Origin: Symbiodinium natans
Taxonomy: Eukaryota; Sar; Dinophyceae; Suessiales; Symbiodiniaceae
Assembly (NCBI GenBank): GCA_905221605.1
Contig: CAJNDS010002206.1
Location: forward strand, 139,501 to 203,500
Length of the DNA: 64,000 nt
Reading direction: 5' to 3'
The notes under the pieces are model-generated. The model was not told where the DNA came from, made no database searches, and saw nothing but the letters and a program-made list of their open reading frames with translations. Positions 1,334 through 49,162 of this stretch are shown here, piece by piece. The position numbers and the translations under genes were made by a program. Positions within the stretch are counted from its first letter, which is position 1; every line of letters starts with the position of its first letter.

Positions 1334-1369
<36 letters not shown>

Positions 1370-6549: not shown

Positions 6550-7033
<484 letters not shown>

Positions 7034-23785: not shown

Positions 23786-23827
23786 GGCCATTTGGTCTGC
23801 CTCCTTGTCCAAGCGCTTGGCGAGCTC
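23786..23827 (-). CDS. Candidate C-terminal exon of the DDX42-like helicase
   Basis: After an AG acceptor (23828-23829) the frame reads ELAKRLDKEADQMA and can leave at a GC donor in phase 0. Charged helix-like composition; no family motif. Confidence 0.4.
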
Positions 23828-24263
23828 CTGGGAACATGGGAGACGCAAACGAAGAAATTTCAAGGAACCCGCATGTGCAACAAGGGACCCCTTCTCAACG
23901 GAATGGGCCCTTCCACTCACCCGCTGGGCTCCTGGACTGTCTCCTTCTGCCTCGAGGCAACGTCGAAGCCGATTCCGAAGGAGCTCTTCTCTACCTTTTC
24001 TTTATGCATCTTGCAATGAGGGAGGAGGCTGTTAGGGATCACAAAAGGCAGGGGGGGGGGATCAGCCCTGTAGTTCGATGACTGCCGGCTACATCAGCCA
24101 AGCTCAAGGCCGCAGAGCAAGGCTCTGAGCATCATGGGAACGAGGCTCGGAGCACCAGCGACGAAGCCGACCGAAAGTCAGGATCCCAGGCCCTGAGGCC
24201 CGAAACATCCCAAAGTAACCCAACAAACCTGCGAGACCCATCCATGGGAAATGCCCAACTAGC

Positions 24264-24332
24264 CCCGAACCCTGGGTAGGCCTTGCCAGCCTTTTTCTTG
24301 CCGAGGAAGGTGCGCCCTTCAAGCTTGGCGGC
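24264..24332 (-). CDS. DDX42: DDX42-like exon: basic/Gly C-terminal segment
   Basis: After AG|G in phase 0 reads [19 protein letters not shown] then PGFG. It fits the Lys/Gly-rich stretch that follows the helicase core in DDX42. The donor (GGG|GC) is tentative. Confidence 0.65.
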
Positions 24333-27300
24333 CTCGGCTTTGGTGGCTGTTTTATTCATTTACTTCTCTTTTTTTTGTGGGGGGGGGGGGGGGGGCGGGC
24401 TCCTTTAAACTGCTTGAGGATGCTAGGTTGCTAGGGTTGCTGGCCTTCAGAGTTAGGAATGTTCAGGATTGAGGGTTTAGGATCTGCATGTGGGGTGGGG
24501 GGGGGGGGGGGGGGGGTTGACATGTATTGCAGACGGCTGTGGTGAGTTTCGTCTCAGGTCGCGACCCGAAAAGGGCCGTACTTCATCGCCAGCCCCTGGT
24601 CTGGAGCTTCTGGTGCCAAAATCTCATTGAAAGCCTAACCACCTCGCTTTGCACCTTTCTCATCGTGGCCCATGTGCATACGTACCCCGGGCAACATGAG
24701 GCAGCATCGATCAGCGGATCTTGGCGGGGCCTTGAGGTCTTCCGGAACTGCCTGATTGGCCTGCTCCAGGTTCTCCACCTACCCGCAGCTTGCGCGCAGG
24801 AAGGTCTGCTTTCATGGGCTCTCGGTAGCTGGATGCTACTGATCCATGTCCCAAGCAAGTGGAAGGCGGAGCAATAAAATACCATTCCCGGGAGTAACCT
24901 GCTGAGGCCAAGGCAAGAAGAGCTGCCATCTTCTTGTTCTGATCGTCGCCGGTCAGAAGTGTGTAAGCCTGATGCGAGCTGGATTGGAGTGAGTTCGGTT
25001 CATGGTGGCACAGCCGGCACCTGCACAGGTCTTGCCGCAACAACTGCTTACAACGCTGACCGCTGACTGTAACGGAGCCAACAGGGAAAGATCTCTTGGG
25101 AATAGCAAGGAATGAGTCGGACTTCTCTGACCAGATACCAGACCTTTCTGTCCACTGTCCTGTTAGCAGCTGAACAACAGGTACCCTTGCATGTCAGCAT
25201 CCTCGCCTGCCCTGCCGCACCAGCGCGCCCGGTGCGGCCTATTCGATGGGTGTGCCTGAGACACACCCGCACCCAAGCTTGGTGAGGCAGCTTCGACTTA
25301 TTTACTCGGCGCTACTTGTTTGGGGGTCCCTATTTTCTGGGGCGAAGCAGGTCTTGAATCTGCGGACTCTGGGTTGAGCCAACACGCACCACGTAGAAAT
25401 TTAATTTTTTGAACAACTAAGCAAAAAAAACTAAATAGAAAAAACACAAAGATCACACCGCCACTTGGGGTGTCCGACGTTTCGATGTCCCTGGCGGCGT
25501 CGTAGGAGACCACGGTGGAAATGGAGGGAAGATCGAGACCTCATGAAATGTCATGAACCACATTGGAGGGACTCTTGGATGGTGCATGGATGATGGTCGC
25601 TCGCAGATGCTCGAATGTGTCATGCGAACAGCTACTGGCCTAGGATTCTGACAGAGTGCACCGTTTAGGATGTTGGGGTTTAAGGGGCTCACAAAGGGTT
25701 CGGGACATGTTTAAGTATTAAGGCAGTTCAGAACAGCTACCGTAGAGTTGGCCGAGCTTGAATCCCGGCCATGTTAGCAAATTGCTGGAAAAGGGCAAAG
25801 GGATCCGGACTCTTAAGCTTTCTGAGCTTGAAGATGCTCCTAGTCAAACCCCAGACCACGTGCTACGGAGGAAGGTGCGCAATGCAAGCAAGGTGCCTCG
25901 AGCTGCAACATCTGTGGCAATCAGCACATCCACCACTCCTCAGAGCCCAAAAGCTCCCCCAAAGGGCCCCTTGTGTTTTTTCATTACGGGCTTGGGTCTC
26001 TGTGTATGGCGAGCAGCGCTTCCTCACGTTGCGCAGGATGCGCATCCGCTCACCTGGCCGAGGCCCCTCATGTCGCAAAAGTGGCCTTACAACCCTTCAA
26101 ATTTCCCCCGCCAGGTGCCTTGTTTTAAAAGCCCACTTGACCATGCACGATGAAGTTGCCGCTTCCGGAGCTCGCGCCGGCCTTGATCGAGATCTCCATG
26201 CAAGAACTCCGTCTTCTTCTCCAAGAAGTCCTGGAAGTTTTGGGAGAGCCTCGGCTCCAGGAGCACAAGCCTCTTCTTCTCCCCCCCCCAGGCCGCAAGG
26301 TCGTACCATGATCGTGCCTATGCCCTGTGGCAGTCGCTCTCAGCCTCGGGCTCCTCCGCACTTGCGATGGACTTCACGAAGACGAGGAGCTGCCACCGCG
26401 CTTGATGCTCTTTCGAGCTTTCGCGCAATGACACACATTTTTTAGGGACGCCATCAAGGCCAACATCTTTGCAAACAGATGCGATCAACGTTGTGTTCAA
26501 CTGCCTGGCCCTTCTGTAGCATGCCGTCGACCCGCTGCGAGAGCCAAGCCTTGCAAGCAAATTTGAAGGCACACGCGCATTCAACTGCAAAGGGGCGCAC
26601 ACCACCCAACACTCTACCTTGTACCTTCACACACCTTAGTACACACACACACCTCGCTAACTCAGCCAACCTGCAGTAAGTTGATTGCCGACAAACTCAC
26701 GCGCAAACCGGAAGTGTCAGCGAATCAACCGAGCCGAGTTGGGTTCCCAGGGAGCTCTGAGCACCCAGGCCCACTTCTCGTCGTCGTTCTTAAGCACTTC
26801 GACGAACTGCTGCACATTGGCAGCCGCCTGTCACCATTCGCGGACCAGACTTTGAAAACACCACTGAATGACAGCAAGTGACTCTAGAAAGCTGCTTTTT
26901 GGTTTATTCCCTCCCTCCCGGAGACCCTTGGTCAGATGGAAGAAACTTAAACATGAGGCTTCTCAGCAAGGTGGCGCCGCCGAGATTCCGCAATTGGAAT
27001 GCTTTCGCTGCACTCCTCCGAAGCCCTTTGTCCGACGGGACATAACTCAAAAAGCACATTGTTCAGCTGTGTGTCAGCGCCGAGATTCCACAATTGGGCT
27101 GCTTTGCCCTTTGCCTAAATGAGCACCTTTTATTTCACCTGTGGGACACCGCTGCCTTAGGCTATAGGCCCCCTGAAAACAGGCCATGAGCAAACCCAGA
27201 GTACGCGCATTTCTCATGCCTCTCATGTTGCGACGTCTCCCCCCCCTATCGTGATTACTCTGAATTGTTTGACGGTGTGGATCGGAACCTGGCTGTACAC

Positions 27301-30300
27301 AGCAATTCTCATGGCAAGAACCCTGTAAGGCGCAATCGTACAATCTGAAGCTTGCGCTGTTGCTGGCCTGACCAACCTCGCCGATTGTGATACGGACCTA
27401 ACCAGCACACAGTCGAAGAGAACTACCGTGGATAGACCCACAGGCAGTATTCCTTGACAGACCACACATCCTTCCGCCTTCTCTCAACACTTCCTATCGT
27501 ATCTCACTCCACCGGACTGGCACACAAAGCAGCAACTATGATTCGGGCGGGATGTTGCAGGATGTCGCCTGCAAAGAGTCTGCGTTTAGTCGCAAAAGCT
27601 TCGCACTTCGCAGCCCTTTGTGTCACATAATGTAACCAGCTACATCTCTAATATGGCTGATGCCGGGAACACGTCACGCTGCGACAACAGCTCTGCATCA
27701 AGTCAAGGTACGAACGCGCCCTGTGACCCAAGCAGCTCCTCAACGACCCTGAACAAAGAATCATCTGAGCCATGCCAGGACCACGGGCTAGCTTCTCAAT
27801 CTTTGGCCTCAATGGCGGCCACGGGGCTCATTTGGAAAGGTGGGGTCGGGTCTCAAGCAGAAGCTTCTACTGAGGGAATGTGACCTTCGGGTCTGGGCTG
27901 AGGGCGTGAGGCGAGAAGGGATTCAAGAAGGCTTGTGCAATCATCCTCAGAGCCATCGAACCACAGAGTTACACGCCCCGGTGCTCAGATTTGTCTCACA
28001 GCCTTACGCTTGGAGAGCGGCGCTTGGTGAAACCGAAATGGGGAAACGACGCTGTACATGTACATGTAGGGCAAATGCTGGTTCGACTTCTGTGCTGCGC
28101 AGCTGTACGGGCAGTCACAGCAAGGAGGACATCGGCATCAGCAGGAAAGGACCAGGAAAGGACCAAAGAGGGTTATGATTAACTTGTTGCATCTGCCAAG
28201 ATGAACTCGAGGCAACGCCACCTAAACTGCCTGAACATGGATAGTCTGGTGCAAAGCTTACATTCGAGGTTTGTGGGCACCAGCGTTTCAAAGAATATTG
28301 CTTCCCCGCTGAGCCAGTCCACTCAGCAGATCATCTCCCTGGCTGGCAGAACTTGGCCGGATCGACGTAGTTAGCCACCGCAGTGGCCAGCAGGTGCTCC
28401 TGGGTTGGGACAAACTCATGGTGCAGGATGAAGCCAGAGCCGACCAATCCCGAAACTCAGGGAGCTGAACGGTTTGTCGAAACCAAAGCCAACTCTGTCG
28501 GGTCATAACTGCACCTGGGGACATGTGGATTGGGCAGCCGCCAGTTCAAGATGAAAAGCCGCCGCACTTGCCTAGGCCTGGGCAGTCGTCAATCCTGCCT
28601 TGCTTCAATGCGGACAAGCCTCCGGCAGCTCATCTGGTTCCTTCGAGCAATGAGTCTTTCTGTTCTTTTTTGGGGATTGCTCTCGCTCTGGTTCGAGTAG
28701 CAGCACAACTAAGCACAATACCACTGCGATGAGAATGAATGGCGTGGTTTATCGCACTGGCAACTCCACACCTCCAACAACCTTACCCTGATGTGAGGAT
28801 GCGTGAAAACCCCTATCCCGCAAGATATCCCTGAATGACGTTATCGCTCGTGTTTACTCTTCTCGTTTTCTCGAGTTTTAGCATTACTCTGAACGCTGTC
28901 GTTCTTTTTTACTCCTATCGTTTTCTCGAGCAAAACGCACATCTGATCATCTCGGGGCGCTTCTCTTTACTTTCAATAGCGGGGGGTTTAATTCATCCCT
29001 CATGTGATTCTATGCTTTTGCCACGGGGACCCCCAAACATTACCTTCAAGCCAAGCCTAAAACACCCTAAACAGCACCCTAAAAAACACCCTAAAAAGAA
29101 AGGATCCGAAAGCCCTGCGTCGCTGGAGGCGAGGAGCCTTCGCCTCCAATAAAAGCGCGCAGCTCAGAACGGCTCCGCGCATGGACTTCAGAACCACACC
29201 TCGGAGTTTGGGTCTCCATGGGACTGTATTCAAACATGCTCAATAAAGCGAGTCACTTCTTCTTATGCTCTTCTTACACCAATACTGTCAATACTTGTTA
29301 TTTGTTGTTGCTCTTAGTGGTTCCGATTTCTTTTGCAAGACAACCAGCAGCGGGCTCATTCAGGATTTAGAGGGGGTTCTGCGGGCGGCTTGGATGTTCA
29401 GTCTCTCTGATGGGGGCGTAAGATTTCGGACTAGCGTCGAAACGCTCACAAATTACAAGCTTGCCCAACACACCGTGAGCCAGCAGCAGCCCTCTCATAG
29501 CCGGATGGGTAGAAAACCCTAAACCCTAAACCCTAAACCCTAAACCCTAAACCCTAAACCCTAAACCCTAAACCCTAAACCCTAAACTGCAAACCAGCGG
29601 CCAACCGTGGCCCCGTTCGCGCGTTCAAACGCGATCTCCAGAAAATCGTTGGGCTTGTGGTGAAACTTGCATTGTAGCAGCTTACATATCCTTGGCTGCA
29701 GGCTACAAGCGCCTCTGCAAGGAGGATTAACTTACACGGCGGTCTACTTTGCTGGAGGTCCCTTGCTTCTAAACTAGGATGGCCCCTAAAAGCCTCTGAA
29801 AAATATTCCTGAACCCTCTTAAACCCAATAAGGGAAAACATTAAATCATTCAATTTTATAAAATGTTTCCCACAGGCCTACCTAGTAAATCAGAACAGCC
29901 ATCACTTCCGGCATCGCAGCCCAGCTGCAACATGGGCTTCTTGATGAAGGCCTTCTTTACAAGCCAGGGCCCCTCCTCCACTGCCAGAATCAGTTTGACC
30001 CGCTGGCGTCCTCAGGTCTTAGGTGCCGCAGCCTGCTCGGCATGCTCGAAACACGACTCCTTAATCCCCTGAATCCCCCCTGAATCCCCTGAAGCCCCTG
30101 AAGCCATCCCCTGAATCCCCTGAATCCCCTGAATCCCCTGAATCCCCTGAATCCCCTGAATCCCCTGAATCCCCTGAATCCCCTGAATCCCCTGAATCCC
30201 CTGAATCCCCTGAATCCCCTGAATCCCCTGAGCATGAAGTGCTCTCTGAGTTCTCCTCTAAAGTTACCAATGTCAACTACAGTCCCGAATCACTGAAGAG

Positions 30301-33300
30301 GCCATGGGGCTGCTGTCATCGTCCCCTTGCAAGAAACTCGTCCAAACGCGCGACCTTCAGGCAGACATCTGGAGCGGGTCCAAAATGCAAGTACGCGTGG
30401 ACATTTCAGCTCTTGAAGAAAGAGCTCAATACACGTGAGCAGGCCGCCGCAATATGTTTGGAGGCCAGCGGCTGTGGTGAGTTTTCATCACTCACCCACG
30501 CAGCGTCAGAGTTCAAGGCCATCGTCATGACAGCCTGCAAGCTCGCAAAAGTCATATCAATTCCTTGCAAATGTCTAGCTCCTGCGGGCGTTCAAGATGA
30601 TACGAGTACAGAGCCCGTTCGGGTAGAGACGCTTCCGCTCATGAGCGGCTCCATGACATCAAGCATCTTGCTCGAGTCGCCGCGTCGCATTTCAAGAGCA
30701 AGGCGTCCCGGAGTGCCTGATAGTCTCCGAGCACAAAGTTTGTGACCAGGAGAAAGCGCTTGTCACCTGAGGCTGACCCGGTCGCAGGCTCCCATGCAAG
30801 GGTATCCACATGAGGGTCCCACCATCTTTCCTGGCACAGGCCGGATAGAAGTCCGGATGCGTGGAGACGTTGGAGACAGGTCCCTCGGCACCTCGGAGGA
30901 AGGAGACACCGCCCGCACACCCAAAGCCCCCTCTTAGAGTCCTTGAAGCTGTGCGCTCTTTCCCACCACGCCACAAAGCATTCAGCGTTGCGGGCGCTTT
31001 GTACATGTCGCACATCTTCCCACAGTTTCCCATGTGGCAACTGACCAAATTGAGGCAAAGACTCCAATGAACACACCACAAACAAAGTCAAGCGGATCTT
31101 GTCATTAAGGGCTTCAAGATCCAGGATGACACGGTTGGGAGTTTCAGTCTTAAGGACCAGGATGAACGTGAGCGGTAAAGAACGCACCCAAATCGGGCCC
31201 TTATCGCAACACTCATATACAAGCATCTGCAAGCTTAGGGCATCACCGATGGCAACCCAATCCTTGGCGTGCCAGGGCTCCCCAACAAAGTTAGCTTTGA
31301 CTTCACGGTTGTATAGGGTTGCCGCCCCCCCCCCCCCCCCCCCCCTGTCCCTCCTCGCCGCCACTTTGTTCGCGCTTTTGTTGGGCTTTGGAGCCTCTAG
31401 TATTCGGAAGGCGTCGATGCCTATCATGCGGGACCAGACTTGGTATGCCCTCGTGACACTTAAGCACGGGCCCGTGCAGAATTTCGCTGAGTGATGCTGA
31501 GAGGAAGCCTGTGTGAGGTTTCTTCAAGAAGGATCCTGTAAGGAACTTTCATGACAGAATCCCTTGCAACAAGATCCCCAAACGGACCCTAGTATGGAGT
31601 CGTCCCGACACTTGCACAAAAAAAACCTTCCTTCACTCACGCAGTGGCGATATTGACCAGCTCCAGCATGGTTGCTGCACAAGGCAGCTTCCGCCGGTCG
31701 CGAAAGTAGGTTTCCTTGTTTTTTTCTTTGGAAGGGGCTGGGGGGGAGGGGGGGGGGGTGTTTAGTTTATTCAACACTTCCTGCACAGGCTGATCGTCCA
31801 TGATTCCTGCGCTTACCCTGGCATTCCTTGTCCCAGCTCTATGGAGCGAAGCCAAGCAACAGATCGAATTCGCCAGTGTCTGCAGTCACCTTGGGCTTAG
31901 CACATTCCTCACTCTCCAGTAGGTTCACAAGGCAGAGAAGCGTGCAGTCCCAAGAAAACTACATGCAGCTGCACTGGAGCTCAGAGCCTTAGATGCTCCA
32001 GAAAACTGTGATGCTAAAGCTACTGCAGTGGAGCTTCCCCGGTTCCAGGAATGTGGAAGGTGACCACGAGGACAAAGCTCGCCTGGGTGATTTGAGGCTG
32101 ATTTGCCGATCTCTTCCGTAATTTACAGCTGCCAGGCTTCGGGCTTCGAGGGGTTTAAAAGGGGTTTCAGGGCTTGGGGGGTGAAAAGCTTAGGGGTTTG
32201 CAGGCTTCATGGATTTGGAACCTTGGGGCTTGAAGGTTAAGCGGTTTGGGAGATTCAGTGTGGACACTCGAGAGCTGTCTAAATGCGGCCTCTGCATGAG
32301 ACGAGTCTCTGCGCTGGCGAAAACTGCGTCGAGGTGCTTTGGCCTTGGTGGCTCGGTTTGCAACTTCGGTGCGATCGTCGTGCAGCCGGAGATGACCATA
32401 TATATATATACACATATGTATCTATATATACATATACATATATATATATATATATATTATGAATTGTTTCTGTCTATCATGGAGTATAAAAGTGCTGCCC
32501 AGCGGCCCGGTTCCGGGCAACCTTTGGGCGGCTCCGCGCCGCCCCATCGTCGGAGTTGTCGCTCAGGGAGAAGAAGGCCTCCTCTGTTCACAGTCCGGTT
32601 GGCACTCTGTAGGGTTTAGGGTTTAGGGTTTAGGGTTTGGGGGTTTAGGGGTTTAGGGTTTAGGGGTTTAGGGTTTAGGGTTTAGGGTTTAGCGTTTAGG
32701 GTTAAGGGTTTAGGGGTTAGGGTTTAGGCATTAGGGTTTAGGGTTTAGGGTTCTCTACAATCACCCTATGTGTTGAGACGAAGATTATCGTGTTTTATTG
32801 TACTGTTTCTTGTCCCAAGGCAAGCCATGATCCGCTGTTGAGTTGGCTTGAGTGATCGGGACGTTTCTTGAGCTGTGGAAAAGTATCTTCACTCTCTGAC
32901 GCGATCAGAAGAGAGGCATCGTTCTCACCCGCCACTTCATCTTCGGCGCCATGTGGCGGTAGCCTTGCCGGCCGGATGTCTAACATGACCATAGCAAAAG
33001 CCCCGCCCTTCAACAACTCTTTGCAGCTGCGGAGCTCAAGCGGGGTCACTCCCCGCCTAGGTGCTCACAGGTCAACTGTGAAGCCGTATTGATCCGTATT
33101 GGGATTGTTGACTGCAATACCCGCGGATGTGCCAATCGGACTCAAGCTTACTACCACGCCTTACACGCACACCTCCTAAGCCCAAGCACGGAAGAGCGCT
33201 TTTCGAATGCCCAGAAATTTTCCGGTGAAGTGGCGTCAGGACATGCTATTGGTAAGCCGAACAGGAATTCACAATAACTACAACACTTGAGACGAAACCA

Positions 33301-36300: not shown

Positions 36301-39300
36301 CATGGATACGCAAGCCTAAGACCTTGCTAGTTGCAAATCCACGGACGCATGGACATGCAGAAGATCAAGCGGCTACAAGACTCCCGCGCCTTTTCTGGAG
36401 ACTTCAAGCACAAGAGTCGTCAAATCAATCTTGCCAGACTGCAGTCTCTGGATCCACGGGGCAAAGGCCCGCGTCACCTCGTCCAGCACCGCCATGCGTG
36501 CCTGACAACGGGAACTACGATAATGCGGGAGCTGCTGGCCATGAACTTTCAGGAAACTAAGATTGGTGCATGGAAAGTTGATATCGGAAACGCAGGGACA
36601 CGATGATGCTGCCTCGACGGAGGCCGTCTCATACGCTTTCAGCTGCCACTGGCTCCATCTCACCTCAGAGTACATTGTGCTTTATGGTTGGTTGGTCTTG
36701 CTCTGCGGCTGAAGGACGGGTATTTCCATGTGCGCAGCATGCTTCCTGCAGCTGTGTGTCCATAAACTTCAGGCGACGCAGCGTAGGTAGCTGCGTGTCA
36801 CCTTGCCCAAGTCATGACCAAGTCACAGTTACTGACAGTTCTTTCAGTGGCCACTCAGATGCAACCAAGATGCAATTAAGTGGGGGCTGCTAGCTACTTC
36901 TAAGATTCTGTTCCACAAAGCGCACCAAAGTGCAGTCGAAGCGGAGCAACAAGCAACAGGCCTTCAGGGTGGTGTCCAGTCTCGTGCTCGAGCTCCTGCA
37001 ATTGTGATTCTTGCGTTTTTTCCCATAGGTGCAGCCAAAACTCACTCGGCCGCATGCTGTCTGTCTCATATGAATCTATTCTGCAATTGTGGAGGGTCGA
37101 TTGAAGGACCCATTATGTCGCGACAATCAGCTTGGTCGCCACTTTGATCAGCACGTATCCAAGAACAACGACCAGCAGGAATTCGTTCAAATCAATCGCA
37201 ACAGATGAGGAAGAAGATGAACTTGAGCAGAAGGCAGGCTGCACAAAACAGGTAGAACCTGCTGAAACTATGCAGAATGACAGCATAAATCAAAAGTTAT
37301 AAAAGTGTTAATGTTTCAATTGTATTGTTCGAGGCTTGCTCAGTGACGAAATCATTGCGGACACGGGAATGTTGCCTGGCTGCCCCAATATCTGGCCCAC
37401 CTGAGTTTCCACCGACAGGGCTGATGAGCTCTCCCCAAAAGCTATCCAAAACATGAGATTGTTGCAGCTGCCTTGGAGCCTTGGAAGAACCCTTAAAGAA
37501 CGCGATTAAAGAATGTGAACTAAAGAAAGCCTCCAGGACTTTACTGCGAACAGGCCAGCAGAACATTCTTACAACCCTTACTGCTGGACAAAAGCTCCCC
37601 AAGCACAGTTCGTGTAAGGTTCAGTAACTTCTGCTATAGGCTCTCCAAGCCACTGGTAGCCTCCAGCGCCACCCACCAGGGCGGCCAAGGCAAGACCCGG
37701 AACGACCAGCCTAACAAGCTAGGCTAGGGGCTAGAGGGCTTAGAGGGGTTTAGGGCTTAGAGGGTGTAGAGGGTTTAGATAGAGGGTTTACAGGGCTTAG
37801 AGGGTTTAGATGTTTGGGGTCCCTTTAATAGTCACGTACTCTGCAGTTGTGCTCAACAAATTGGCCACGCCGAGTCGCGGCGATGCCGCGACGCCCAAGG
37901 CGCCGCCCATGGCAGCTCCGACCTGCCGAAGGAGAACACATCGATCTAAGGGTTAATACGGGCCCTTCAAAGGGGACCCACTATGCTCCCTGAACCCTTT
38001 CAAGGGAGGCAAGGGACCATACTAAGGGCCCGTGAAACTGCCCTTGGAATTTAAGACGCCTTAAGTTGGGCTATGGGCTTACGTCTTCGAGTGCTGATAC
38101 GCCGGCTCAACAGTCGGTCCTGAAGTTCTAATGTTCTGCGCCCAGGAATCCTTCAAAATTGGGAGAAAGGACGGCTTGAACAATTTGACTCCATCCGAAA
38201 CTTGAAGCGTGAAAGGTATTGCTGCTACCGCCGTCGTCGGCCACTGAGCATGGGTATCCCGACTTCACCTTTCAGTTGGTGAGCTGGGTCGTCCATACAG
38301 TGACCGAGTAGTTTCAGGAGCCCACAACATGGATATACCCTAGACTCTAAACCCTAAACCCTACAAGCGCCGGGTTTATCTCGACCCACGCGGTGTAAAG
38401 TCGGCCCAACCCCAGCGGCACACAGCAAAACAAGGCAGAGGAAGGAAGTCACCCCAGGCGGTGTAAAGTCGGCCCAGCAACAGCGAAACCCCAGGGGCAC
38501 ATGGCTTTTGAGAGCTTTTGTGCCTTTTTACAAAAATGGCACCGGAGCTGTGCACAGTGGGTTGAGAAGCCTTAAAACATCATTGGTAAGCGGCTTTGAA
38601 TTGCGAAACTGCAGGGGCACATGGTTTTTCGGATGGTTTTACGGCCATTGCAGGGTTGGCAAGCATGGGTTGGAAAGCATGGTTCTGCATGATTCTCGCC
38701 CCTGCTTATCAACTTTGACCCGATGGATTTCACCCCGGCTGATCAACTTTGATCCGAGGGACTTCCCCCCATTCGCCCCTGCTGAGCAACTTCGCATGCA
38801 GTGTGAAGGAAAATCCATTGTTTTGGGGAGGGGCATATGTGTGGCCCTGCGCGAGGGTCGCGCGACCTTGCGCGAGGCCCACGCGAGGTAAGGCAAGGCC
38901 CCACACAAGCCATCTGAGAACATAGCCCATGTGACATGGTATCGCGGTTGTTACAGCGTTCCCCGAGGGGCACACTGGGATTGGGACAACTTCCGCCTTG
39001 CGGGGAATGCTTGCAATGGTTTCATGCATCGGAGGCTTCGGGGTTACAGCACAAACAACGATCCGGAAATGTTCCAAAACTTTCCAAAACCATGTGCACA
39101 GCACTATAAGACCGAAAAACTCTGGGTCTGATGAAATATAAGATATGTTGGGGATATGGGAAAGTAAGCCCAAACCCTGCGGCACATAGGCTTGGCACGA
39201 CTTCACCTCGGCAGGGTCGACTTAAACCTACCACTCGTAGACCCTAGACCCTAGACCCTAGACCCTAGACCCTGAACCTAAACCCTAAACCCTAGACCCT

Positions 39301-40147
39301 AGACCCTAGACTCTAGACCCTAGACCCTAAACCCTAAGCCCTAAACTTCCTAAACCCTAAACCGCCATTCCTTTCAACGGCTCTTCAGCGGGAGAGAGGA
39401 GCTGAGTCATCGACGGCACCGAGCTTCCAGCTCCTCCATGAGCTCCGCTCCTGGCACTGTCAATGCTCGTGACATGGAGCCACGAAGAATGCGAACAATC
39501 ATGCTAATGCTTGTAATACTAAGAACAACCACAGTACCACGAATTAATACAACGACTACTGCAATAGCAATAATAAGAATAAGAGAAAAGAGTAAGAATT
39601 ATCATCATAACAATAATCATACTAATCATAATAAGAATAATCGTAATAATAAGAATAATAATAATAATAATGGTAATAATAATAATAGTAATGTCTGCCT
39701 TCTTCGCATCTTGCAGCTGCCGACCTTAATGTACTCGGAGAAGTCAGTCTCGAACTTCTCTTCGATGGTGACTTGCTCCGGGGGGAACTTGCCTCAACAC
39801 TGAATGAAAACATGGAGCCCCCGCAGCCGAGATGCATGTCGAACATCTCGAGCACGAAGGGTGTCGAGACGCTTGAGCTGGACTTTGACGCCGTTCGGCC
39901 TCCTCGAGAATCGTGGGCCCCGCCAAGACTGAAATCTAGCATGCTTAAGCGCTCTCAGCTCTCTCTAGCAGCTCCAGCAACAAGGCGCCGGGAAATCTGT
40001 ACAGTGCCTGCATTACAGACTGTAGTCGTAACTAGCGATCATCAGTGGCCCAATTAATTAAGAAGCTAGTGTCGTGGTACTCAAAATGTGGACAATGCGA
40101 AATCGTGCACAAATGTGATATACTGATGCACTGCATCCACAACACAC

Positions 40148-40191
<44 letters not shown>

Positions 40192-43100
40192 TGAGAGCCC
40201 TTCGACAGCCCCCCAACCCCCACCCCCACATCTTCCCGTCCTTGCACCGACACTGCCGACACAGAACTGGGAGTGTTCGGGCATGTCCCAGCCCTCGAAG
40301 CACGAAGGGACGATCATCAAACTTGCTCAAGCCCTTCGCTGCGAGCCATGTTGGACATCGGGAACAGTGCGATCAGCAAGGCCATTGTACAGGTGCGACA
40401 CATTATGAGTCATGGACAACTTGTACATCTGGATGAGCCCAAGCAGCTCAGATCCCTGTCTGATCACTGGGCCCTCCATGGCACTCTGGCAGCAACTTGA
40501 CACTGCACTTTGCTATGCCATGCTGTGCTGCTGTAAGGGTGGACTGGGTTAGGGCGTGGCTTGTGGGTGTTTGGAATGGCTCGGCTGGGCCAGCCGTGCC
40601 CTCTTGGCTCTTGTCTCCTCAACTTGGTCAATACTGGGGCAACGAAGCTGGGAACCTCCTTCGGACTTGTGGAGTGTCACATTTGCTGGCTTTGTACTTT
40701 CTGAAGGTACACAAAAGAAGATGGTTGAGGACCAGATGCCCTTGAATTCGATACTACGAAGCTAAGCTCATGTCTGCTCAGCCGAGAAGCTGCGGTCAAC
40801 TCAAAGTGACGGTAGACTACTTGCATTCCTAGTACGTACTAGTACTACTACGTGAACAAAGTGCAAGTGCTAGCATTGCTACTCGTACTCATACAAAAAC
40901 TAGTACTGGTACGAATCCAAGTACGAATCCAAGTGACATTTCTTGCTACTCCTACGACAGCAACAGCGACTGTGAGTACGACGACGACTACTAGTATTAC
41001 TCGCTGGCTGCGACTGCTCTTACGCGGCTTTGTTCTACATGCCCAATTCCCAGTTGCGGACCCTTTTCAACTTCTGGGTGCTTCCTCAGAGTTCGAATCA
41101 CCTTCCCTCCTTCCATTTGTACGCCCTTCCGTCCTTTCTTCTTTACTTCCCGCTGTGCTTGGTCACGCCTTTTGCTAAGAGACACCCGAGTCTTCTTCCA
41201 CCGTCAACTCAGCGTTCCCCGACTTGCGCCCCCCCCCCCCCCTGCCCGCGGCTCTGAGGCAGCAACGGGAAGGTTGCCGAGAAAAGAAGCGTCTGTCTGC
41301 TGGGCCGGATGTTCTGCACCTCAAGTTCCAACTTCGAAAAGTTGATGGTAATGGCGGTTGCTTGAGCGGCCCACGCTACGAGTAAGAATCATCTCGGTGC
41401 TGAGGCGAGGGCAATCGAGCGAACCTGTCCGACTGTCCGGCAGCTTTCAGCTAATGGCTCATAAGACACTTCTGAAGGGATCTGCTGCTTGCCAGGGTGC
41501 ATCTCAAACCAAAAACAACAAGACATTCGCCGGCCTGGTATTCAAAGCCCATGTGGAACATGCGGTCAGCTTCATCCAAGACCTTTGCTTCGAGCTTCAA
41601 GAATGTGGCACATTGTGCGTGTGTGCGCGTGTGTATGTGTGTGTGTGTGTGCGCGCCGACATTGAAAGCCTCCAGATCTGTAGAAAGTACTGTAGGCGAC
41701 AATTGGATCTAGCTCACCTAGTTGGAACCATTTATCTCAGTTTCATCACCGAACTGCAACGTTCCAGGAGCCAGGAGACGTGAAGTAGGGCCAAGGGCTT
41801 CATAGGGTTGCTGAGATGCCTCGCAGATGGTGACCAAGAACCGGGGCCCCAGCTACGTATGTACATCGCTGCAAGTTGCAGCCTTTCATCCTGACCAGTG
41901 GACAACTTCAATGCGTCTTAGTTTTCTGAGGGCACCATAGGAGTCAAGCAGCTCATCCAGTGACATCAGCATCTCCGATCCGGGGCTCAGGCTTAACAAC
42001 ATCAATTAGGCGGCCAGGATTGCAAATCGCAATTTCTGCTCCACCTCGTAGAGCCGACGACAAAGGGCAAAGGGCTCTACAGGGGGCGACAACAGGAATG
42101 CATTTAGTCTCGGGCGCCCACCCTTCCCCTGCACCCGACTGGCCAATTTAGGCCCTAAACACTAAACTCACTCACCATGTCAGTTCATTATTTTACTTCG
42201 AGCATGCCCACCCTACAGATTTGGAATTTTCTGGGGCTGGGCATTCCAGGAACACCCTGGGGTCGGGCATTCCAGGGACACTCCAGGGATACTCTGGGGT
42301 GGGAATACGGGTGACGGGCGAGGAGCAGACCGGGCGAGGAGAAGAGCTTAGCTTAAAATCTCACAACCCCGCACCGAGCATCCCTAAGCCCACAGGGCAT
42401 CCAACTTCTGGAAGCCGCGGACTGGGGGCCCACACGCTTGACCTCCTTGAACTGCTCCAGCTTGCTCAATCCGCCAGCCAGCGTCACGCTCCGCATGCCT
42501 GATGTGTTCAGGGATTCACGTTTGGCCTCCTTTGAAGTGCTTGGGTGTCTTTTGGAGAACTGGCCGTGGGCCCACGGGCGCGGATGCGATGAACCCTGTG
42601 AGCCCCACCCAGCTGCTTGTTGAACTTGAAGGTCTCGGTCTCGATCTGCACCTTCGTGACTTCGTGGGATGAACCATTCCAGGTCCAGGTTCTCAGCTAG
42701 CCAAAGCCTAGCCGTCACATCAGGAATCTTATGTTCGCATGTGTCTTGGATCCGGGCTGCAAGCTCTCTCGTTGGACAGAGAACGATGCCTGTTGGGGTG
42801 ATGCGGGACTCAGGTGGTGCGCTTCAGCGTTAAGCTACGAATGGCAAGCCGAGAGACGGCTCTGCTCTCATGAACCTGCAAACTTTATGAATGCCGTGGG
42901 GCCTATTGGCCCGTCGTCCTTCTGCAGCTCTGGCCTGTATTGGCCACATTGAGATTATGGCAGTCGTATTGTTGTTCTGGCAGGCTTTGGAACATGCCTA
43001 CGAAGACTTATGACAACTCAAGTTCCACACTGCCCACCACCCGCGGCTGGAACTGAGCCAGGTGCTGGGCGATGGCATGCACGAGCCTTGCTCAGAAACA

Positions 43101-45296
43101 GGGAAACAAGTTGAAGTTTGAAGTTCAGACTGTCCAGCACCCACATGTCTCACCCCAAGCCACCCTCAGCAAGTCCAAAAGTGAGCTGTGGTGTTCCGGG
43201 CAGGCTTTGGGGATTCTCGGCAAATGGTGTTTACAGGCCAGGATTTTGGGACACACATGCCTTGTGGGGCGTTCCCTGCATCGTTCTCCCATATGTATCG
43301 TGACCTGTCCTTCTTCAGGATGGCCCCGCGCAGCGCAGGCATGTCAAGAGGCTACATCATCCCCAGGCTAGCTGCTGGGTGTTTAGGCAGGAGTTGTGCC
43401 GGAAATAAAACAATCGCTCCCAAACCTTCCATTTGCCTCCGCCTCGTCGCTGGACGCTTAAGATCGTCCAAGAAGCATGGGCAGCAGGTAGGCGACCGTC
43501 TTGCCACTGCCTGTCTCGGCCTCAGTGTGTAAAGAGCCAGCTTCAAGCGAGATGATTTGCCAAAGATGTCAGCTTCAGGCAATGAGGATTGGGGGGGGGG
43601 GAGGGGTTCTACATCATGGTTCTGTAAGGTAGAACTTCCCCAATGCAAAGCCGTCATCGACTTTCCCGCGCAGCTTTGAGTATATCTTGCGCGTTTGGAG
43701 ATCTTCTTCGGATTGTGAGGAGCAAGGTCAACCAGCCTTTGGTTCCTCTCCAGAACCGGCTCGAGTGGAAAAGCCCGTCGGATGTCGCGGAGGTAGCGGA
43801 ACGGCCACTTGTTGGCGAATCCTGTGCTGCACTACAACGTGGCTGCCGGCAAGTTCCCGTGCTGGACGGCGCGTCCTGTGAGCTGACTCCTGGCCTCAAG
43901 ACTTCCGCTCGATCCAGGAGGTATAGACATGTATGGATCCCATCCCCCATCTGTACATGCAAGCCCCGGCTTACTAGGTGTGGAAAGCACCTCCGCTTCA
44001 CCTCCTTCCTTTGCTGCGATTTGCAGCGAAGGGTGGCAAGGGCGTCAGGGGGGGTCACCTGTCCAAGGAACCGCGAGTTCCCGGGGCAACCGACAATTGA
44101 GTGCGGGAAGGCCACAGGCGGCCGCCAACTGTCATGGCACGTGCACATGCATGGTTTCTTGACAGGCTCACAAACAAACTCTCGAGCTTGCGAGCAGTCG
44201 TGCAGTTGAGTGGCTGAACTCTCCCGTGATACATACAAGTCAGTCCACAAAATATTTTGCAAAGGATCTCTGAGATTCTTCCAATCTGAGCTTTCCACTA
44301 CGCCGATGACATCTCGACCTGACCAGGTTCTTGAAACCAAGGCCGCGAGACTTAGGCAGCGTTGTCCACTGACAAAAGCTTGCGCCGCCAACTTACTCTT
44401 TGCTCGATGTCTGCCAGGCTACATGCACTCACATCGTTTTCGCCCAAGGCTTGGTGCCCTACCAGACAGGGCAACGGGGATTGCCTGCGCCTGCAAAACA
44501 TGCCACATCAACATGACCCACAACAAGGCAGCGTCACACAAGATAAACGAGGCTTGAGATTTGCTTGCCACCCCACTCACCCCTTCTGAACATGGTGCTG
44601 CTCTTAGAAACGGAGTGCCTACGGGTCAGCGCACTTAGGCCTGGCAAAGGCTGGCCTATCTGCTGCAGACTTCTCAAGTGATGTGAGCCTGGATGGCGGT
44701 AGGCTGCTGGTAGCCGTGGCGTCGGATTCCCTGTGGGCAGGCGTTTCGCAAATGCTGTGACATCACGACTCAGCTGAGCAGGGCTGGATTCGCCTGCAAA
44801 CTGGCATCGTGAACTGTGCAACCAAGGCCCCAAGCCTCCATTATCTCTCGGCCCAGCACATGGGCAAGGTGGGCGAAGGACGTCACCGGAGCTACGATCT
44901 GTGAGCCAGTGGCACCTGCAGTCGGCAGGCTCTTTTGCAGGACACGTTCAAGTCTTCGATCTTACTCAAACGTCGCCGAGGCCCCCACTCACTCGCAAAT
45001 CGAGCCGAACTTGCGCAATCTGCCATTGAGCTCAAATGCGTGTCTTATGCATGGCGGGGCGGGGTCTTTGTCTCTGCCCGAGCTATCGGACACAACAACT
45101 CGAGCGAATGCTGAAGCCCAACGCTCAACTCATCTTCACCGGCCTGCTCGTTCGTCATCTTGGCTACTTCTTCGTGGGGCTTGTAGAAGTTTGTCTGAAC
45201 CTTCGCAGTTGTGATGGAACTGAGTTGTTCTGGAAGCCCCTGGAAGCAGATCCTGAGCTTCCCGGCTGGGTTGTACCGCATCTGCGAGTGATCCAC
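24264..45296 (-). CDS. DDX42: DDX42-like (SF3b125) DEAD-box RNA helicase, at least 30 mini-exons
   Basis: An ATP-dependent RNA helicase of the DEAD-box family. DDX42/SF3b125 works with the U2 snRNP SF3b complex in the nucleus (family knowledge). Reading the exons in order gives every helicase motif: Q (GYQQPTAIQ), I (AETGSGKT), Ia (PTRELA), Ib (NPGRLID), II (DEAD), III (SAT), IV (LLVFVKS), V (ATDVAARG) and VI ([10 protein letters not shown]). The DDX42 assignment rests on GFEYQVRSI after DEAD, on [18 protein letters not shown] and on AYTLLTGDD. About 452 residues are covered. About 22 of 30 donors are GC, the rest GT; nearly all acceptors are AG|G; reading phase matches at almost every junction. 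Introns are mostly 50-700 bp, with one of 12.9 kb (28400-41266). Start, stop, and a possible small exon before 44898 were not found. Motif Ib has Asn where Thr is usual. Confidence 0.93.
24379..24516. repeat. Two poly-G tracts inside an intron
   Basis: Runs of about 17-20 G at 24379-24395 and 24497-24516 on the + strand (C-runs in the transcript). Confidence 0.9.
24566..24595 (-). CDS. DDX42: DDX42-like exon: [10 protein letters not shown]
   Basis: A 30-nt exon between AG|G and CGG|GT, phase 0 on both sides. It corresponds to the LAMQNAWFR region of DDX42. Confidence 0.85.
24731..24778 (-). CDS. DDX42: DDX42-like exon: [16 protein letters not shown]
   Basis: A 48-nt exon, AG|G acceptor, AAG|GC donor, phase 0. 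It matches the VRNLEGANQ segment after motif VI. Confidence 0.9.
24915..24968 (-). CDS. DDX42: DDX42-like exon: [18 protein letters not shown]
   Basis: AG|G acceptor, phase 0. AYTLLT is diagnostic of the DDX42 group. The donor CTT|GC is weaker than the others, but the join to the next exon gives [14 protein letters not shown]. Confidence 0.9.
25207..25255 (-). CDS. DDX42: DDX42-like exon: motif VI
   Basis: Reads (T)[16 protein letters not shown] between AG|G and CAG|GC. The first base completes the Thr codon split with the previous exon. Confidence 0.95.
25479..25539 (-). CDS. DDX42: DDX42-like exon: (G)[19 protein letters not shown](T)
   Basis: A 61-nt exon with both edge codons split; AG|G acceptor and AAC|GT donor. 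It carries the segment between motifs V and VI. Confidence 0.93.
25897..25938 (-). CDS. DDX42: DDX42-like exon: motif V
   Basis: Reads [13 protein letters not shown](G), AG|G acceptor and GAG|GC donor. ATDVAARG is the motif V signature. Confidence 0.93.
26149..26249 (-). CDS. DDX42: DDX42-like exon: LHGDLDQ segment
   Basis: The largest exon seen (101 nt). It holds [20 protein letters not shown] and then [21 protein letters not shown] matches motif IVa of DDX42. Acceptor CCGAG|G, donor ATC|GT. Confidence 0.92.
26352..26389 (-). CDS. DDX42: DDX42-like exon: motif IV
   Basis: A 38-nt exon [12 protein letters not shown](E) between CAG|C and GA|GC. The intron after it starts GCCCGAGGCT and ends GGAGCCGAG|GCT, so its two ends carry near-identical sequence. 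Confidence 0.9.
26505..26549 (-). CDS. DDX42: DDX42-like exon: [15 protein letters not shown]
   Basis: A 45-nt exon, AG|G and CAG|GC, phase 0. With the flanking exons it gives KWAWLSQRV...GQLLVFV, matching the KWNWL...VLLFV layout of DDX42. Confidence 0.92.
26771..26827 (-). CDS. DDX42: DDX42-like exon: [19 protein letters not shown]
   Basis: A 57-nt exon, AG|G and TGG|GC, phase 0. It matches the 'Q.V..L....KW' stretch that opens RecA domain 2. Confidence 0.92.
27356..27397 (-). CDS. DDX42: DDX42-like exon: [14 protein letters not shown]
   Basis: A 42-nt exon, AG|G and AGC|GC, phase 0. After DP of the previous exon it gives the family's 'DPVRI..GEVGQA' linker. Confidence 0.9.
28358..28399 (-). 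CDS. DDX42: DDX42-like exon: [14 protein letters not shown]
   Basis: A 42-nt exon after CCCAG|G, donor CCG|GC, phase 0. It matches the helix after SATF that ends in DP. The preceding exon lies 12.9 kb away and does not meet it in phase at standard splice sites. Confidence 0.85.
29515..29587. repeat. Interstitial telomere-like block (CCCTAAA)n
   Basis: About ten perfect copies of AAACCCT. The plant/dinoflagellate-type telomere unit is known; here it is internal and on the C-rich strand. Confidence 0.97.
30064..30231. repeat. 9-bp minisatellite CCCCTGAAT
   Basis: About 18 copies, most of them perfect. Because the unit is nine bases, minus-strand frames stay open as Gly-Phe-Arg or Gly-Asp-Ser repeats. 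Confidence 0.97.
30639..31427 (-). CDS. Open frame of 262 codons inside the 12.9-kb interval, unrecognised
   Basis: The longest frame in the window that is not repeat-driven. Likely coding parts are [35 protein letters not shown] and [20 protein letters not shown] Gly run encoded by the C-run at 31325-31345 suggests the frame crosses intron sequence, so several exons are probably mixed with intron read-through. No family recognised. Confidence 0.35.
   Translation of the reverse strand: MIGIDAFRILEAPKPNKSANKVAARRDRGGGGGGAATLYNREVKANFVGEPWHAKDWVAIGDALSLQMLVYECCDKGPIWVRSLPLTFILVLKTETPNRVILDLEALNDKIRLTLFVVCSLESLPQFGQLPHGKLWEDVRHVQSARNAECFVAWWERAHSFKDSKRGLWVCGRCLLPPRCRGTCLQRLHASGLLSGLCQERWWDPHVDTLAWEPATGSASGDKRFLLVTNFVLGDYQALRDALLLKCDAATRARCLMSWSRS
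32399..32459. repeat. TA-rich microsatellite
   Basis: Alternating TATA/CATA run. Confidence 0.9.
32608..32752. repeat. Interstitial telomere-like block (TTTAGGG)n, degenerate
   Basis: About 20 copies of TTTAGGG with GGGGTTTA and other variants, G-rich on the + strand, so opposite in orientation to the block at 29.5 kb. Confidence 0.95.
32865..33049 (-). CDS. Coding-like island, unrecognised (nested)
   Basis: The minus frame reads [20 protein letters not shown], later [20 protein letters not shown] and EDTFPQLKK. The hydrophilic composition is unlike the low-complexity surroundings. Edges approximate. Confidence 0.35.
33455..33540 (-). CDS. Coding-like island, unrecognised (nested)
   Basis: After CTCAG the frame reads [20 protein letters not shown] then LPDFFSMSR. 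Edges approximate; no family recognised. Confidence 0.3.
33905..33966 (-). CDS. Coding-like exon, unrecognised (nested)
   Basis: After CCAG|G reads [20 protein letters not shown] plus Q, ending near a GT site. Amphipathic helix character, splice-flanked like the helicase exons. Confidence 0.4.
35024..35064. repeat. TA-rich microsatellite
   Basis: TATATA run interrupted by CAG and CAT. Confidence 0.85.
35555..36000 (-). CDS. Coding-like islands, unrecognised (nested)
   Basis: Two minus-strand pieces look coding: [20 protein letters not shown] at about 35920-35980, and [20 protein letters not shown] followed by [20 protein letters not shown] at about 35555-35660. Exon borders were not resolved. 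Confidence 0.3.
36040..36152 (-). CDS. Coding-like exon of 113 nt, unrecognised (nested)
   Basis: Between TTAG|G and CTGG|GC reads [20 protein letters not shown] then [17 protein letters not shown]. It ends with one base of a Gly codon. Open only in this frame and splice-flanked, so probably a real exon of a gene I cannot name. Confidence 0.5.
36390..36501 (-). CDS. Coding-like exon of 112 nt, unrecognised (nested)
   Basis: Between GTCAG|G and AAAAG|GC reads [20 protein letters not shown] then [17 protein letters not shown]. It lies about 240 bp upstream (minus strand) of the previous exon. Both edges leave one base over or none, so a further exon may lie between. Confidence 0.5.
36600..36664 (-). 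CDS. Coding-like island, unrecognised (nested)
   Basis: After CTGAG|G reads [20 protein letters not shown]. Donor uncertain. Probably the exon before 36390-36501. Confidence 0.35.
37723..37822. repeat. Degenerate telomere-like block
   Basis: Runs of AGAGGGTTTAG and GGGCTTAG, readable as decayed TTTAGGG copies. Confidence 0.75.
38338..38364. repeat. Short telomere-like block
   Basis: CCCTAGACTCTAAACCCTAA: about four copies of the CCCTAAA unit. It is followed by two copies of GCGGTGTAAAGTCGGCCCA (38387 and 38459). Confidence 0.8.
39236..39365. repeat. Interstitial telomere-like block with CCCTAGA variant
   Basis: A mix of CCCTAGA and CCCTAAA units, about 18 copies. The CCCTAGA variant has spread in tandem, so the block has evolved in place. 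Confidence 0.93.
39540..39703. repeat. AAT-rich microsatellite
   Basis: AAT/AAG/CAT trinucleotides, ending in a clean AAT run at 39655-39700. Confidence 0.9.
39725..39875 (-). pseudogene. Coding-like segment with a one-base frame change, unrecognised
   Basis: One minus frame reads [20 protein letters not shown] then FSVE (39793-39875). Directly adjoining, in the next frame, comes [20 protein letters not shown] then IK (39725-39792), ending at AAG|GT. The two join smoothly if one G is added at GTTGAGGCAAG, so it looks like one coding stretch with a one-base deletion or read error. Family not recognised. Confidence 0.45.
40143..40190. repeat. CA microsatellite
   Basis: About 24 CA repeats with one CG interruption. 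Confidence 0.95.
41267..41319 (-). CDS. DDX42: DDX42-like exon: motif III (SAT)
   Basis: After TTGAG|G reads [17 protein letters not shown] and two bases of a Pro codon before GT. If the exon runs one base further (CCG), the join to [14 protein letters not shown] is in frame, but the intron then lacks standard ends. Confidence 0.92.
41413..41424 (-). CDS. DDX42: DDX42-like 12-nt micro-exon: VRSI
   Basis: GTTCGCTCGATT lies between CAG and GC, phase 0 on both sides. It supplies exactly the four residues missing between GFEYQ and VQNIRP when compared with the DDX42 family (GFEYQVRSI). Confidence 0.85.
41535..41582 (-). CDS. DDX42: DDX42-like exon: motif II (DEAD)
   Basis: Reads [21 protein letters not shown] acceptor and CAG|GC donor, phase 0. 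DEADRM(F)xMGFEYQ is the DDX42 form of Walker B. Confidence 0.96.
41854..41890 (-). CDS. DDX42: DDX42-like exon: (K)[12 protein letters not shown]
   Basis: A 37-nt exon, CAG|G and GTA|GC. The first base completes a Lys codon. Confidence 0.9.
41993..42044 (-). CDS. DDX42: DDX42-like exon: motif Ib
   Basis: Reads (R)[16 protein letters not shown](K), AG|G and AA|GC. The usual TPGRLID reads NPGRLID: a Thr-to-Asn change at an RNA-contacting position. Confidence 0.93.
42436..42498 (-). CDS. DDX42: DDX42-like exon: GG motif
   Basis: Reads (G)[20 protein letters not shown](R), CAG|G and AGC|GT. GG lies in the usual place between motifs Ia and Ib. Confidence 0.93.
42609..42651 (-). CDS. DDX42: DDX42-like exon: [14 protein letters not shown](G)
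   Basis: A 43-nt exon, AG|G and TGG|GT, continuing PTRELA in frame. Confidence 0.92.
42758..42789 (-). CDS. DDX42: DDX42-like exon: motif Ia
   Basis: Reads (G)[14 protein letters not shown] and GCA|GC. Confidence 0.94.
42903..42934 (-). CDS. DDX42: DDX42-like exon: (Q)[10 protein letters not shown](G)
   Basis: A 32-nt exon, CAG|G and TAG|GC. It matches the ELxxGDGPI stretch before motif Ia. Confidence 0.9.
43066..43086 (-). CDS. DDX42: DDX42-like 21-nt micro-exon: (M)LVHAIA(Q)
   Basis: AAG|G acceptor, CA|GC donor, both edge codons split. It completes PML.H...Q between motif I and PEL. Confidence 0.85.
43477..43520 (-). CDS. DDX42: DDX42-like exon: motif I (Walker A)
   Basis: Reads [14 protein letters not shown](M), CTGAG|G and AT|GC. 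GSGKT binds ATP phosphates. Confidence 0.96.
44299..44318 (-). CDS. DDX42: DDX42-like 20-nt micro-exon: (G)RDVIGV
   Basis: CAG|G acceptor and GTA|GT donor. GRDVIG precedes Walker A in the family; the join reads [16 protein letters not shown]. Confidence 0.9.
44463..44490 (-). CDS. DDX42: DDX42-like exon: AQAIPVALS(G)
   Basis: A 28-nt exon, TGCAG|G and CTG|GT. It completes [12 protein letters not shown] after the Q motif. Confidence 0.92.
44689..44730 (-). CDS. DDX42: DDX42-like exon: Q motif
   Basis: Reads [18 protein letters not shown] and CAG|GC, phase 0. The Gln of PTAIQ contacts adenine in DEAD-box proteins. Confidence 0.94.
44836..44898 (-). CDS. DDX42: DDX42-like exon: upstream aromatic of the Q motif
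   Basis: Reads [20 protein letters not shown] then E, CACAG|A and GAG|GC. PVTSF holds the Phe found 17-20 residues before the Q motif. The exon joining it to the next one upstream was not fixed (IEDLN near 44950 is one candidate). Confidence 0.88.
45144..45200 (-). CDS. DDX42: DDX42-like exon: [19 protein letters not shown]
   Basis: A 57-nt exon, AG|G and CAG|GC. NFY....E(I/V)A.MT is the conserved N-terminal signature of DDX42/DDX46. Confidence 0.93.
45267..45296 (-). CDS. DDX42: DDX42-like exon: [10 protein letters not shown]
   Basis: A 30-nt exon, GAG|G and CCA|GC. Joined to the next exon it gives [16 protein letters not shown], the counterpart of the VDH..I.Y.PF.KNFY block. Confidence 0.92.
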
Positions 45297-45987
45297 CTCG
45301 CAAAGTGAACCAAAGGTGGGCAATGCTTGTCCTCTGAACAACTGAGCAGGCCCTTGTACTGCCATCTCATGTTGCAAGACAACTTGAGGTCTCCGTTTGT
45401 ACAATCGCTGGCATTGTCTGCGCCCTAACTACTGGGGAGGACCGCGGATGGGAAACTCATTCGAAAAAAGAGTTGTTTGGCTGCCGCTAAACGAGGAGAC
45501 CAAAAACATATGACCGTCAGAGGTCCACATTTTTGTGGGCTGGGACGTCGGCGTGGTTCAAGAACAGTGGCCCAAAATGAACGAAGGCCAAGATTGCCCC
45601 AAACCCGAACTGGCAATGCCACTTGAATCTAATCGGTACGGGACTGACACTCTCCCATACATTTTCGTGGCTTGGGCTGGGCCTGAGGGAGAAAGAGAGA
45701 AGGAGAGAGAGAGAGAGAGAGCGAAACAAAAAGATGAACATGCATGTCCCAGGCGCCGCAGGCAGTGGCTCGATGGGCTTGTTCCGTCGGTCGCCATCCT
45801 GCCAAAATCTTCAAATTGTCAAAGTTCCGGTTTCTTCCAAGCAGTCCCCAAAACCCTCAAAATTCATGAGTGACTGCACTTGCAAGAGTGAGGATTTCAC
45901 TGCAGATTTCTTACCACTTCACAAATCCGCCTCTGAGACGACATCATTAGACCGCAACTTGCTTTGGATATCGTGAGCCCCAGCTGC

Positions 45988-46032
45988 CTCCTCGCCCTCA
46001 TCTTGCCCAAGCTCGGCAGCTTCAGGCTCTGC
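45988..46032 (-). CDS. Candidate N-terminal acidic exon of the helicase
   Basis: GCAG|G and GAG|GC enclose AEPEAAELGQDEGEE in phase 0. Acidic N-terminal segments are normal in DDX42, but nothing specific confirms it. Confidence 0.45.
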
Positions 46033-49131: not shown

Positions 49132-49162
49132 ACACAAAAACACTTGCTGCAGCCACGGCGGC

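Follow-up and report, generated by a model that had tools for sequence, protein, structure and literature searches.

The window analysed here, a stretch of 64,000 nt comprising bases 139501-203500 of contig C1894 of the Symbiodinium natans genome (759 Mb in 2543 contigs), carries a DDX42 gene on its minus strand, which spliced alignment to close homologues places between ∼58.7 and 20.2 kb. The aligner, a protein-to-DNA program written for the purpose, permits any donor or acceptor at a price, and the guide query was lengthened at its N-terminus using P0018, a protein of Effrenium voratum. The full model consists of 50 exons running from 58682 to 20168, reaches a score of 2260 and is identical to the query in 584 of 701 residues. 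Joined, these exons give 2127 nt free of stops and frameshifts. An aligner this permissive yields alignments of ∼300 points from noise alone: ten nulls, namely the plus strand (324), the reversed protein (307), four dinucleotide-shuffled DNAs and four shuffled proteins, scored 281-337. Because a local spliced alignment can pick up points from noise, exons 1 and 46-50 are regarded as tentative, and the 44 exons from 2 to 45 (57616-23067; 532 of 624 columns identical to the guide query) are regarded as well supported. Low scores of their own were obtained for exons 6 (18), 24 (14) and 47 (17). Neither the start nor the stop codon was placed in the model; candidate first exons vary between alignment runs, as do the candidate residues preceding DPLDAFM. 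All exons are listed in Table 1.

Table 1. Exons and giant introns of the DDX42 gene, from the spliced alignment. Identity is given as identical columns relative to the guide query.
Feature	Position in window	Strand	Identity	Remarks
Exon 1	58644..58682	-	8/13	tentative 5′ limit; EDPLDAFM part (58644-58667) recurs with three queries
Exon 2	57580..57616	-	9/12	
Exon 3	57373..57404	-	8/11	
Exon 4	57172..57204	-	7/11	donor GA
Giant intron 4	46169..57171	-		11003 nt
Exon 5	46133..46168	-	10/12	
Exon 6	45988..46032	-	6/15	weak
Exon 7	45757..45798	-	12/14	
Exon 8	45267..45296	-	7/10	
Exon 9	45144..45200	-	15/19	
Exon 10	44989..45019	-	5/10	
Exon 11	44836..44915	-	23/27	longest, 80 nt
Exon 12	44689..44730	-	11/14	Q motif, QQPTAIQ
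Exon 13	44463..44490	-	7/9	
Exon 14	44299..44318	-	6/7	
Exon 15	43477..43520	-	15/15	motif I, AETGSGKT (also motif scan)
Exon 16	43066..43086	-	7/7	
Exon 17	42903..42934	-	10/10	
Exon 18	42758..42789	-	11/11	motif Ia, PTRELA (also motif scan)
Exon 19	42609..42651	-	13/14	
Exon 20	42436..42498	-	20/21	GG motif
Exon 21	41993..42044	-	18/18	NPGRLID
Exon 22	41854..41890	-	11/12	
Exon 23	41535..41582	-	16/16	motif (10 protein letters not shown; also motif scan)
Exon 24	41413..41424	-		12-nt microexon, VRSI
Exon 25	41267..41319	-	18/18	motif III, SATF (also motif scan)
Giant intron 25	27808..41266	-		13459 nt; multicopy repeat and telomere-type arrays inside
Exon 26	27785..27807	-	7/7	
Exon 27	27549..27568	-	6/7	
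Exon 28	27368..27397	-	9/10	
Exon 29	26771..26827	-	16/19	
Exon 30	26505..26549	-	14/15	
Exon 31	26352..26389	-	13/13	motif IV, LLVFVKS
Exon 32	26182..26249	-	21/22	FLHGDLDQ
Exon 33	26018..26053	-	11/12	
Exon 34	25897..25938	-	14/14	motif V, ATDVAARG
Exon 35	25479..25539	-	20/21	
Exon 36	25207..25255	-	15/16	motif (10 protein letters not shown; also motif scan)
Exon 37	24915..24968	-	17/18	
Exon 38	24731..24778	-	14/16	
Exon 39	24566..24595	-	10/10	
Exon 40	24282..24332	-	15/17	
Exon 41	23932..23994	-	16/21	donor GA
Exon 42	23786..23827	-	13/14	
Exon 43	23655..23694	-	9/13	
Exon 44	23483..23556	-	11/25	low identity; donor GA
Exon 45	23067..23117	-	13/17	SSDEDLFAPG
Exon 46	21238..21296	-	13/20	tentative
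Exon 47	21046..21094	-	6/16	tentative, weak
Exon 48	20714..20729	-	5/5	tentative, QPPQA
Exon 49	20299..20353	-	12/19	tentative; without AG in front
Exon 50	20168..20204	-	8/12	tentative; stop codon not placed

Exons 2-45 sum to 1872 nt, with a mean of 42.5 nt, a median of 42 nt and a range of 12-80 nt. Their donors are GC in 29 cases, GT in 12 and GA in three (n = 44), and all 44 acceptors are AG, followed by G in 42 instances. Between these exons lie 43 introns in phases 0, 1 and 2 (26, 11 and 6, respectively), of which 41 measure 66-778 nt. The other two are the giant introns, number 4, which lies between exons of 33 and 36 nt, and number 25, which lies between exons of 53 and 23 nt. A sequence-only reading of positions 24264-45296 had described 30 mini-exons there, with a total of 1355 nt, a mean of 45 nt, about 22 GC donors and AG|G at nearly every acceptor. 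The mini-exons stand with revised counts (33 exons, 1377 nt, mean 41.7 nt), and the splice sites were seen correctly: GC occurs at 24 and GT at nine donors, AG at 33 of 33 acceptors and a following G at 31. An exon does start exactly at 45296 and another ends at 24282, close to the lower limit, but the interval itself was too narrow: the model continues for seven exons upstream, as far as 58682, and for as many as ten downstream, as far as 20168.

A unique G[TCA]-AG placement within the best-scoring set was obtained for 39 of the 43 introns, compared with 2.8 on average and nine at most under random placement (1000 trials). At introns 6, 11, 40 and 44 the canonical junction falls outside the top-scoring set, yet no more than 6 score units away. 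When the alignment was run without any dinucleotide preference, 39 of 43 junctions were found at most 4 nt from a G[TCA]-AG pair. The top counts among 27 other dinucleotide classes were 26, 8 and 8, and the count of 26 belongs to class CN with GG, which represents the same junctions read one base later. Since many introns carry AG|G at either end, the protein alone is sometimes ambiguous between GC-AG and a cut one base away; for such junctions GC-AG was chosen because it is the documented type.

Published averages for S. natans are 58% GC, 23.6% GT and 18.4% GA donors with 97.1% AGG acceptors (PMC10666404), and Cladocopium uses 36.6% GT, 43.6% GC and 19.8% GA (PMC9412976). Typical Symbiodiniaceae genes and the window gene thus have these donors and AGG acceptors in similar proportions, and the comparison with the S. 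natans donor figures revealed no difference (chi-square 3.9, p 0.14). The splice dinucleotides are ordinary for Symbiodiniaceae, in which GC-AG dominance is common, so neither the GC donors nor AG|G contribute to what sets the gene apart. The initial description of its fragmentation as extreme even for dinoflagellates is a matter of exon size and number: the same sources give a mean exon of 106 nt and 15.7 exons per gene for S. natans (PMC10666404) and 99-120 nt with 15.7-17.2 exons per gene across Symbiodiniaceae (PMC10666404, PMC9412976), as against a mean of 42.5 nt and 44 or more exons in this gene. What is unusual is this exon size and number, together with two introns of 11.0 and 13.5 kb whose neighboring exons measure 23-53 nt, the yardstick being published averages, a single paralogue and a limited, biased set of helicase loci rather than a genome-wide distribution.

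This set consisted of eight further helicase-like regions and one on contig C29, aligned with distant queries that leave the flanking exons unreliable. In eight of these nine control loci the longest fitted exon measures 120 to 1048 nt, compared with 80 nt in the window gene; the ninth (L014) had an alignment score of 333, which is at noise level, and was set aside. The comparison is weak because the loci were found by six-frame matches, which favor long exons. The region on C29 (233048-234106) encodes a DEAD-box helicase identical to P0001 in 231 of 636 residues, with a coding exon of more than 1 kb.

Judged by its sequence, the window gene encodes DDX42: a PDB search, a tree and the SF3B1-binding helix agree on this assignment, as does the gene model with the DDX42-type helicase that had been read on the minus strand. 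A motif scan finds helicase motifs I, Ia, II, III and VI in order on this strand, and motifs Q, IV and V are visible in the gene model. The DEAD-box series Q, I, Ia, II, III, IV, V and VI is therefore present in order, as the sequence-only reading had stated. A few extra motif III matches elsewhere in the scan are due to chance. The assembled protein matches PF00270 (6.1e-47) and PF00271 (2.3e-26), both above the Pfam cut-off. With 518 of its 709 residues as query, and the helicase core aligned over query residues 6-463, the PDB search returned DDX42 (E 5.2e-151, 507 bits), then DDX46 (2.3e-108, 366 bits) and DBP2 (351 bits); the core is common to the DDX42 chains 7evn_E, 8hk1_E and 8dpe_A. 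In a tree of 34 chosen rows, with a single DDX46 row on a long branch, the window protein forms one clade with P0001 and P0018 (support 100/100), and a 100/99 split sets the DDX42 side, to which this clade belongs, apart from seven DDX46/DDX5-type rows.

Near the N-terminus, EDPLDAFMAEI aligns with DDPLEAFMAEV of 7evn_E in a 126-residue match (E 8.1e-12). By this alignment, the window protein possesses a helix corresponding to the SF3B1-binding helix of DDX42, whose contacts with SF3B1 are given as positions 114, 116, 117, 119, 120 and 123 in PMC9935549. The helix alone cannot separate DDX42 from DDX46, because the latter has a similar DPLDAYMEEV. The acidic N-plug of DDX42, which lies upstream of this helix and fills the RNA path of SF3B1, was not recovered in the gene model, and the C-terminal tail was compared with P0001 only. 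Among the best 120 of at least 8000 matches, a draft of the protein matched P0001, which NCBI annotates as “DDX42,” and DDX42-like proteins, two of them from E. voratum; some of the DDX42-like matches listed are on contigs of ∼2 kb that resemble transcripts. A literature search, whose scope lay mostly outside subscription journals, found no paper on DDX42 in dinoflagellates and nothing judged relevant on microexons or short exons in these organisms.

With P0001 the window protein shares 541 of 643 aligned residues, and with P0018 it shares 297 of 363. P0001, the NCBI-annotated orthologue, has the core but begins at roughly exon 6, past the 11-kb intron and the one small exon that follows it here, and therefore lacks the SF3B1-binding helix; most of its missing N-terminal part is encoded here upstream of that intron. 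P0018 carries 13 extra residues exactly at intron 21, which, counted in codons, would fit a retained 39-nt GT...AG stretch. At most one residue from intron 28 it leaves the family sequence, and it ends about eleven residues later. These departures resemble errors of gene prediction that affect the same introns; the comparison suggests that some intron positions are common to the window gene and E. voratum. The expectation that standard gene finders would miss the gene was half right: the core of P0001 has been annotated, but its N-terminal part is absent and P0018 is faulty. Annotation groups have already adapted gene finders to GC-AG introns, as stated in PMC8045281.

The same genome harbors a second DDX42-type gene, paralogue B (C180:575786-591159, loci L011-L013), which is likewise intron-rich and includes one intron of 5.3 kb. 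The first 28 of its 29 exons average 65 nt, three of them reaching at least 100 nt, and differ in length from exons 2-45 of the window gene (Mann-Whitney p 4e-5). Its acceptors are AG in 27 of 27 cases and its donors GC (14), GA (7) and GT (7; n = 28). Only three of the 36 core intron positions of the window gene are exactly common with paralogue B, which has 23 there, while chance gives a mean of 0.5 and a maximum of four (5000 trials). One more position is shared exactly outside the core, and four more lie within 6 nt. A few introns may therefore be old, whereas most are not common to both paralogues.

Intron 25 contains an 880-bp repeat (38362-39240), parts of which have matches of 78-97% identity, with recurring ends, at dozens of genomic sites; with the whole 13.5-kb intron as query, at least 126 genome matches were obtained (39 of 8904 candidates scored). 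Degenerate TTTAGGG-like arrays flank the 880-bp repeat at 38338-38365 on one side and 39238-39363 on the other, and it may represent a mobile element associated with telomere-type repeats. Interstitial TTTAGGG-type arrays in both orientations occur in the giant introns at 29514-29587, 32610-32752, 39238-39363 and 48880-48949. Other genes within the giant introns were considered and rejected: none of the 10 long open reading frames examined, out of 30, reached the curated cut-off of Pfam (weak matches to VOMI and DUF4734 remained below threshold), and two of six frames of the 13.5-kb intron produced only a sub-threshold collagen-like match on a simple repeat. Two of six frames of the 11-kb intron had no Pfam match, nor had a 262-aa open frame on the minus strand inside intron 25 (30642-31427).

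Elsewhere in the window, a CA-type simple repeat (23218-23453) occupies part of intron 44, which separates the low-identity exon 44 from exon 45, and a 480-bp GCGT/GT tandem repeat (6551-7031) is located downstream of the gene. Positions 1-15000 gave no Pfam match at E 0.01 in any of the six frames, a search that mini-exon genes would escape. Even when six mismatches were allowed, neither strand of the window yielded a spliced-leader relic, and the window contains no tRNAs or Rfam families.

Based on these observations, we propose with high confidence that the locus is an intact-looking nuclear DDX42 gene, the ∼50 mini-exons of which (44 well supported) are joined by ordinary cis-splicing. It could instead be a decayed or untranscribed copy with the islands as conserved remnants, the expressed DDX42 being paralogue B. 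The presence of that second gene would allow this, but the 2127 nt of joined exons hold no stop or frameshift, exons 7-43 agree with the guide query at 468 of 521 columns, and the tree assigns the two genes to separate branches, the window gene with P0018 of E. voratum and paralogue B with P0017 of the same species, and therefore both copies have long been kept. We find this scarcely credible. Hardly more probable is a gene of fewer, longer exons than modelled, with some islands as artefacts of the permissive aligner. Such artefacts are conceivable given the null scores of ∼300, the mere 12 nt of exon 24 and the six identical columns out of 15 in exon 6. However, retention would introduce a stop or frameshift for 42 of the 43 introns, leaving a single one that could be kept in, and the alignment free of dinucleotide preference, which placed 53 exons, recovers 48 of the 50 in the model. 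Exon 24 is the only VRSI-encoding unit among four AG-12nt-G[TCA] units in its gap, and VRSI are the residues of P0018 at this place.

The fragmentation of the gene could also stem from insertions of introners (transposons), old decayed ones included, an origin that we consider possible but doubtful. Introners are documented in dinoflagellates (Roy et al. 2023, as cited in a review), 17 of the 43 introns have AGG at each side, and 33 of 36 core intron positions are not common to paralogue B. The hallmarks given in PMC10666404 are inverted repeats of 8-20 nt within 30 nt of the intron ends and direct repeats of 3-5 nt. Yet an 8-nt inverted repeat between the first and last 30 nt is found in none of the 43 introns (shuffled mean 0.3), direct repeats, taken at junctions only, average 2.72 nt compared with 2.68 nt for shuffled acceptors, and none of the 43 introns matches another at E 1e-3.

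The sequence itself establishes the coding islands together with their order, frame, junction dinucleotides and family. For an intact gene joined by cis-splicing, the ordinary dinoflagellate machinery would connect the mini-exons, at the exact places modelled, through GC, GT or GA donors and AG|G acceptors. The short introns are probably paired across the intron, which would not be easy for the two giant ones; these have probably been lengthened by repeats. If expressed, the protein would be expected to bind SF3B1 via its N-terminal DPLDAFMAEI helix and, by analogy to human DDX42, to act in U2 snRNP assembly. The locus is a known gene with known splice types in an extreme exon layout, wider than first reported.

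How these splice sites are singled out is less easily accounted for. Their information content amounts to 4.1 bits for the donor and 6.2 bits for the acceptor, whereas ∼9.7 bits each are needed to single out 43 sites in 34,550 nt, and the score of the median real site is equalled or exceeded by 1027 donor-like and 280 acceptor-like decoys. Even with the giant introns excluded, 7.9 bits are needed, and 304 and 61 decoys, respectively, remain. A polypyrimidine tract is absent (54% pyrimidine at –25 to –5 compared with 50% in intron bodies), and a loose branch-site pattern is not enriched in the last 50 nt (14 of 43 introns) relative to the first 50 nt (20 of 43). The pairing of introns 4 and 25 may fit neither exon definition nor intron definition comfortably. 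An unlikely proposal is that dinoflagellates mark mini-exons by a further system that is not known from model eukaryotes, on which DDX42 expression would depend and which may involve exon-bound factors, RNA structure, chromatin or recursive splicing.

Exon definition in vertebrates is comfortable down to ∼50 nt. Most exons of this highly conserved gene are smaller than that, and its splice signals are weak. Since the protein sequence fixes most junctions, the gene is a good test case for splice-site choice and for the training of gene finders, and the published models of two of its relatives are disrupted or truncated at these introns or close to them. The two giant introns flanked by mini-exons add to its value as an extreme test case for the joining of tiny exons. 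In animals, the gene product is itself a splicing factor. If a further marking system does exist, DDX42, a U2-snRNP factor, would need that system for its own expression.
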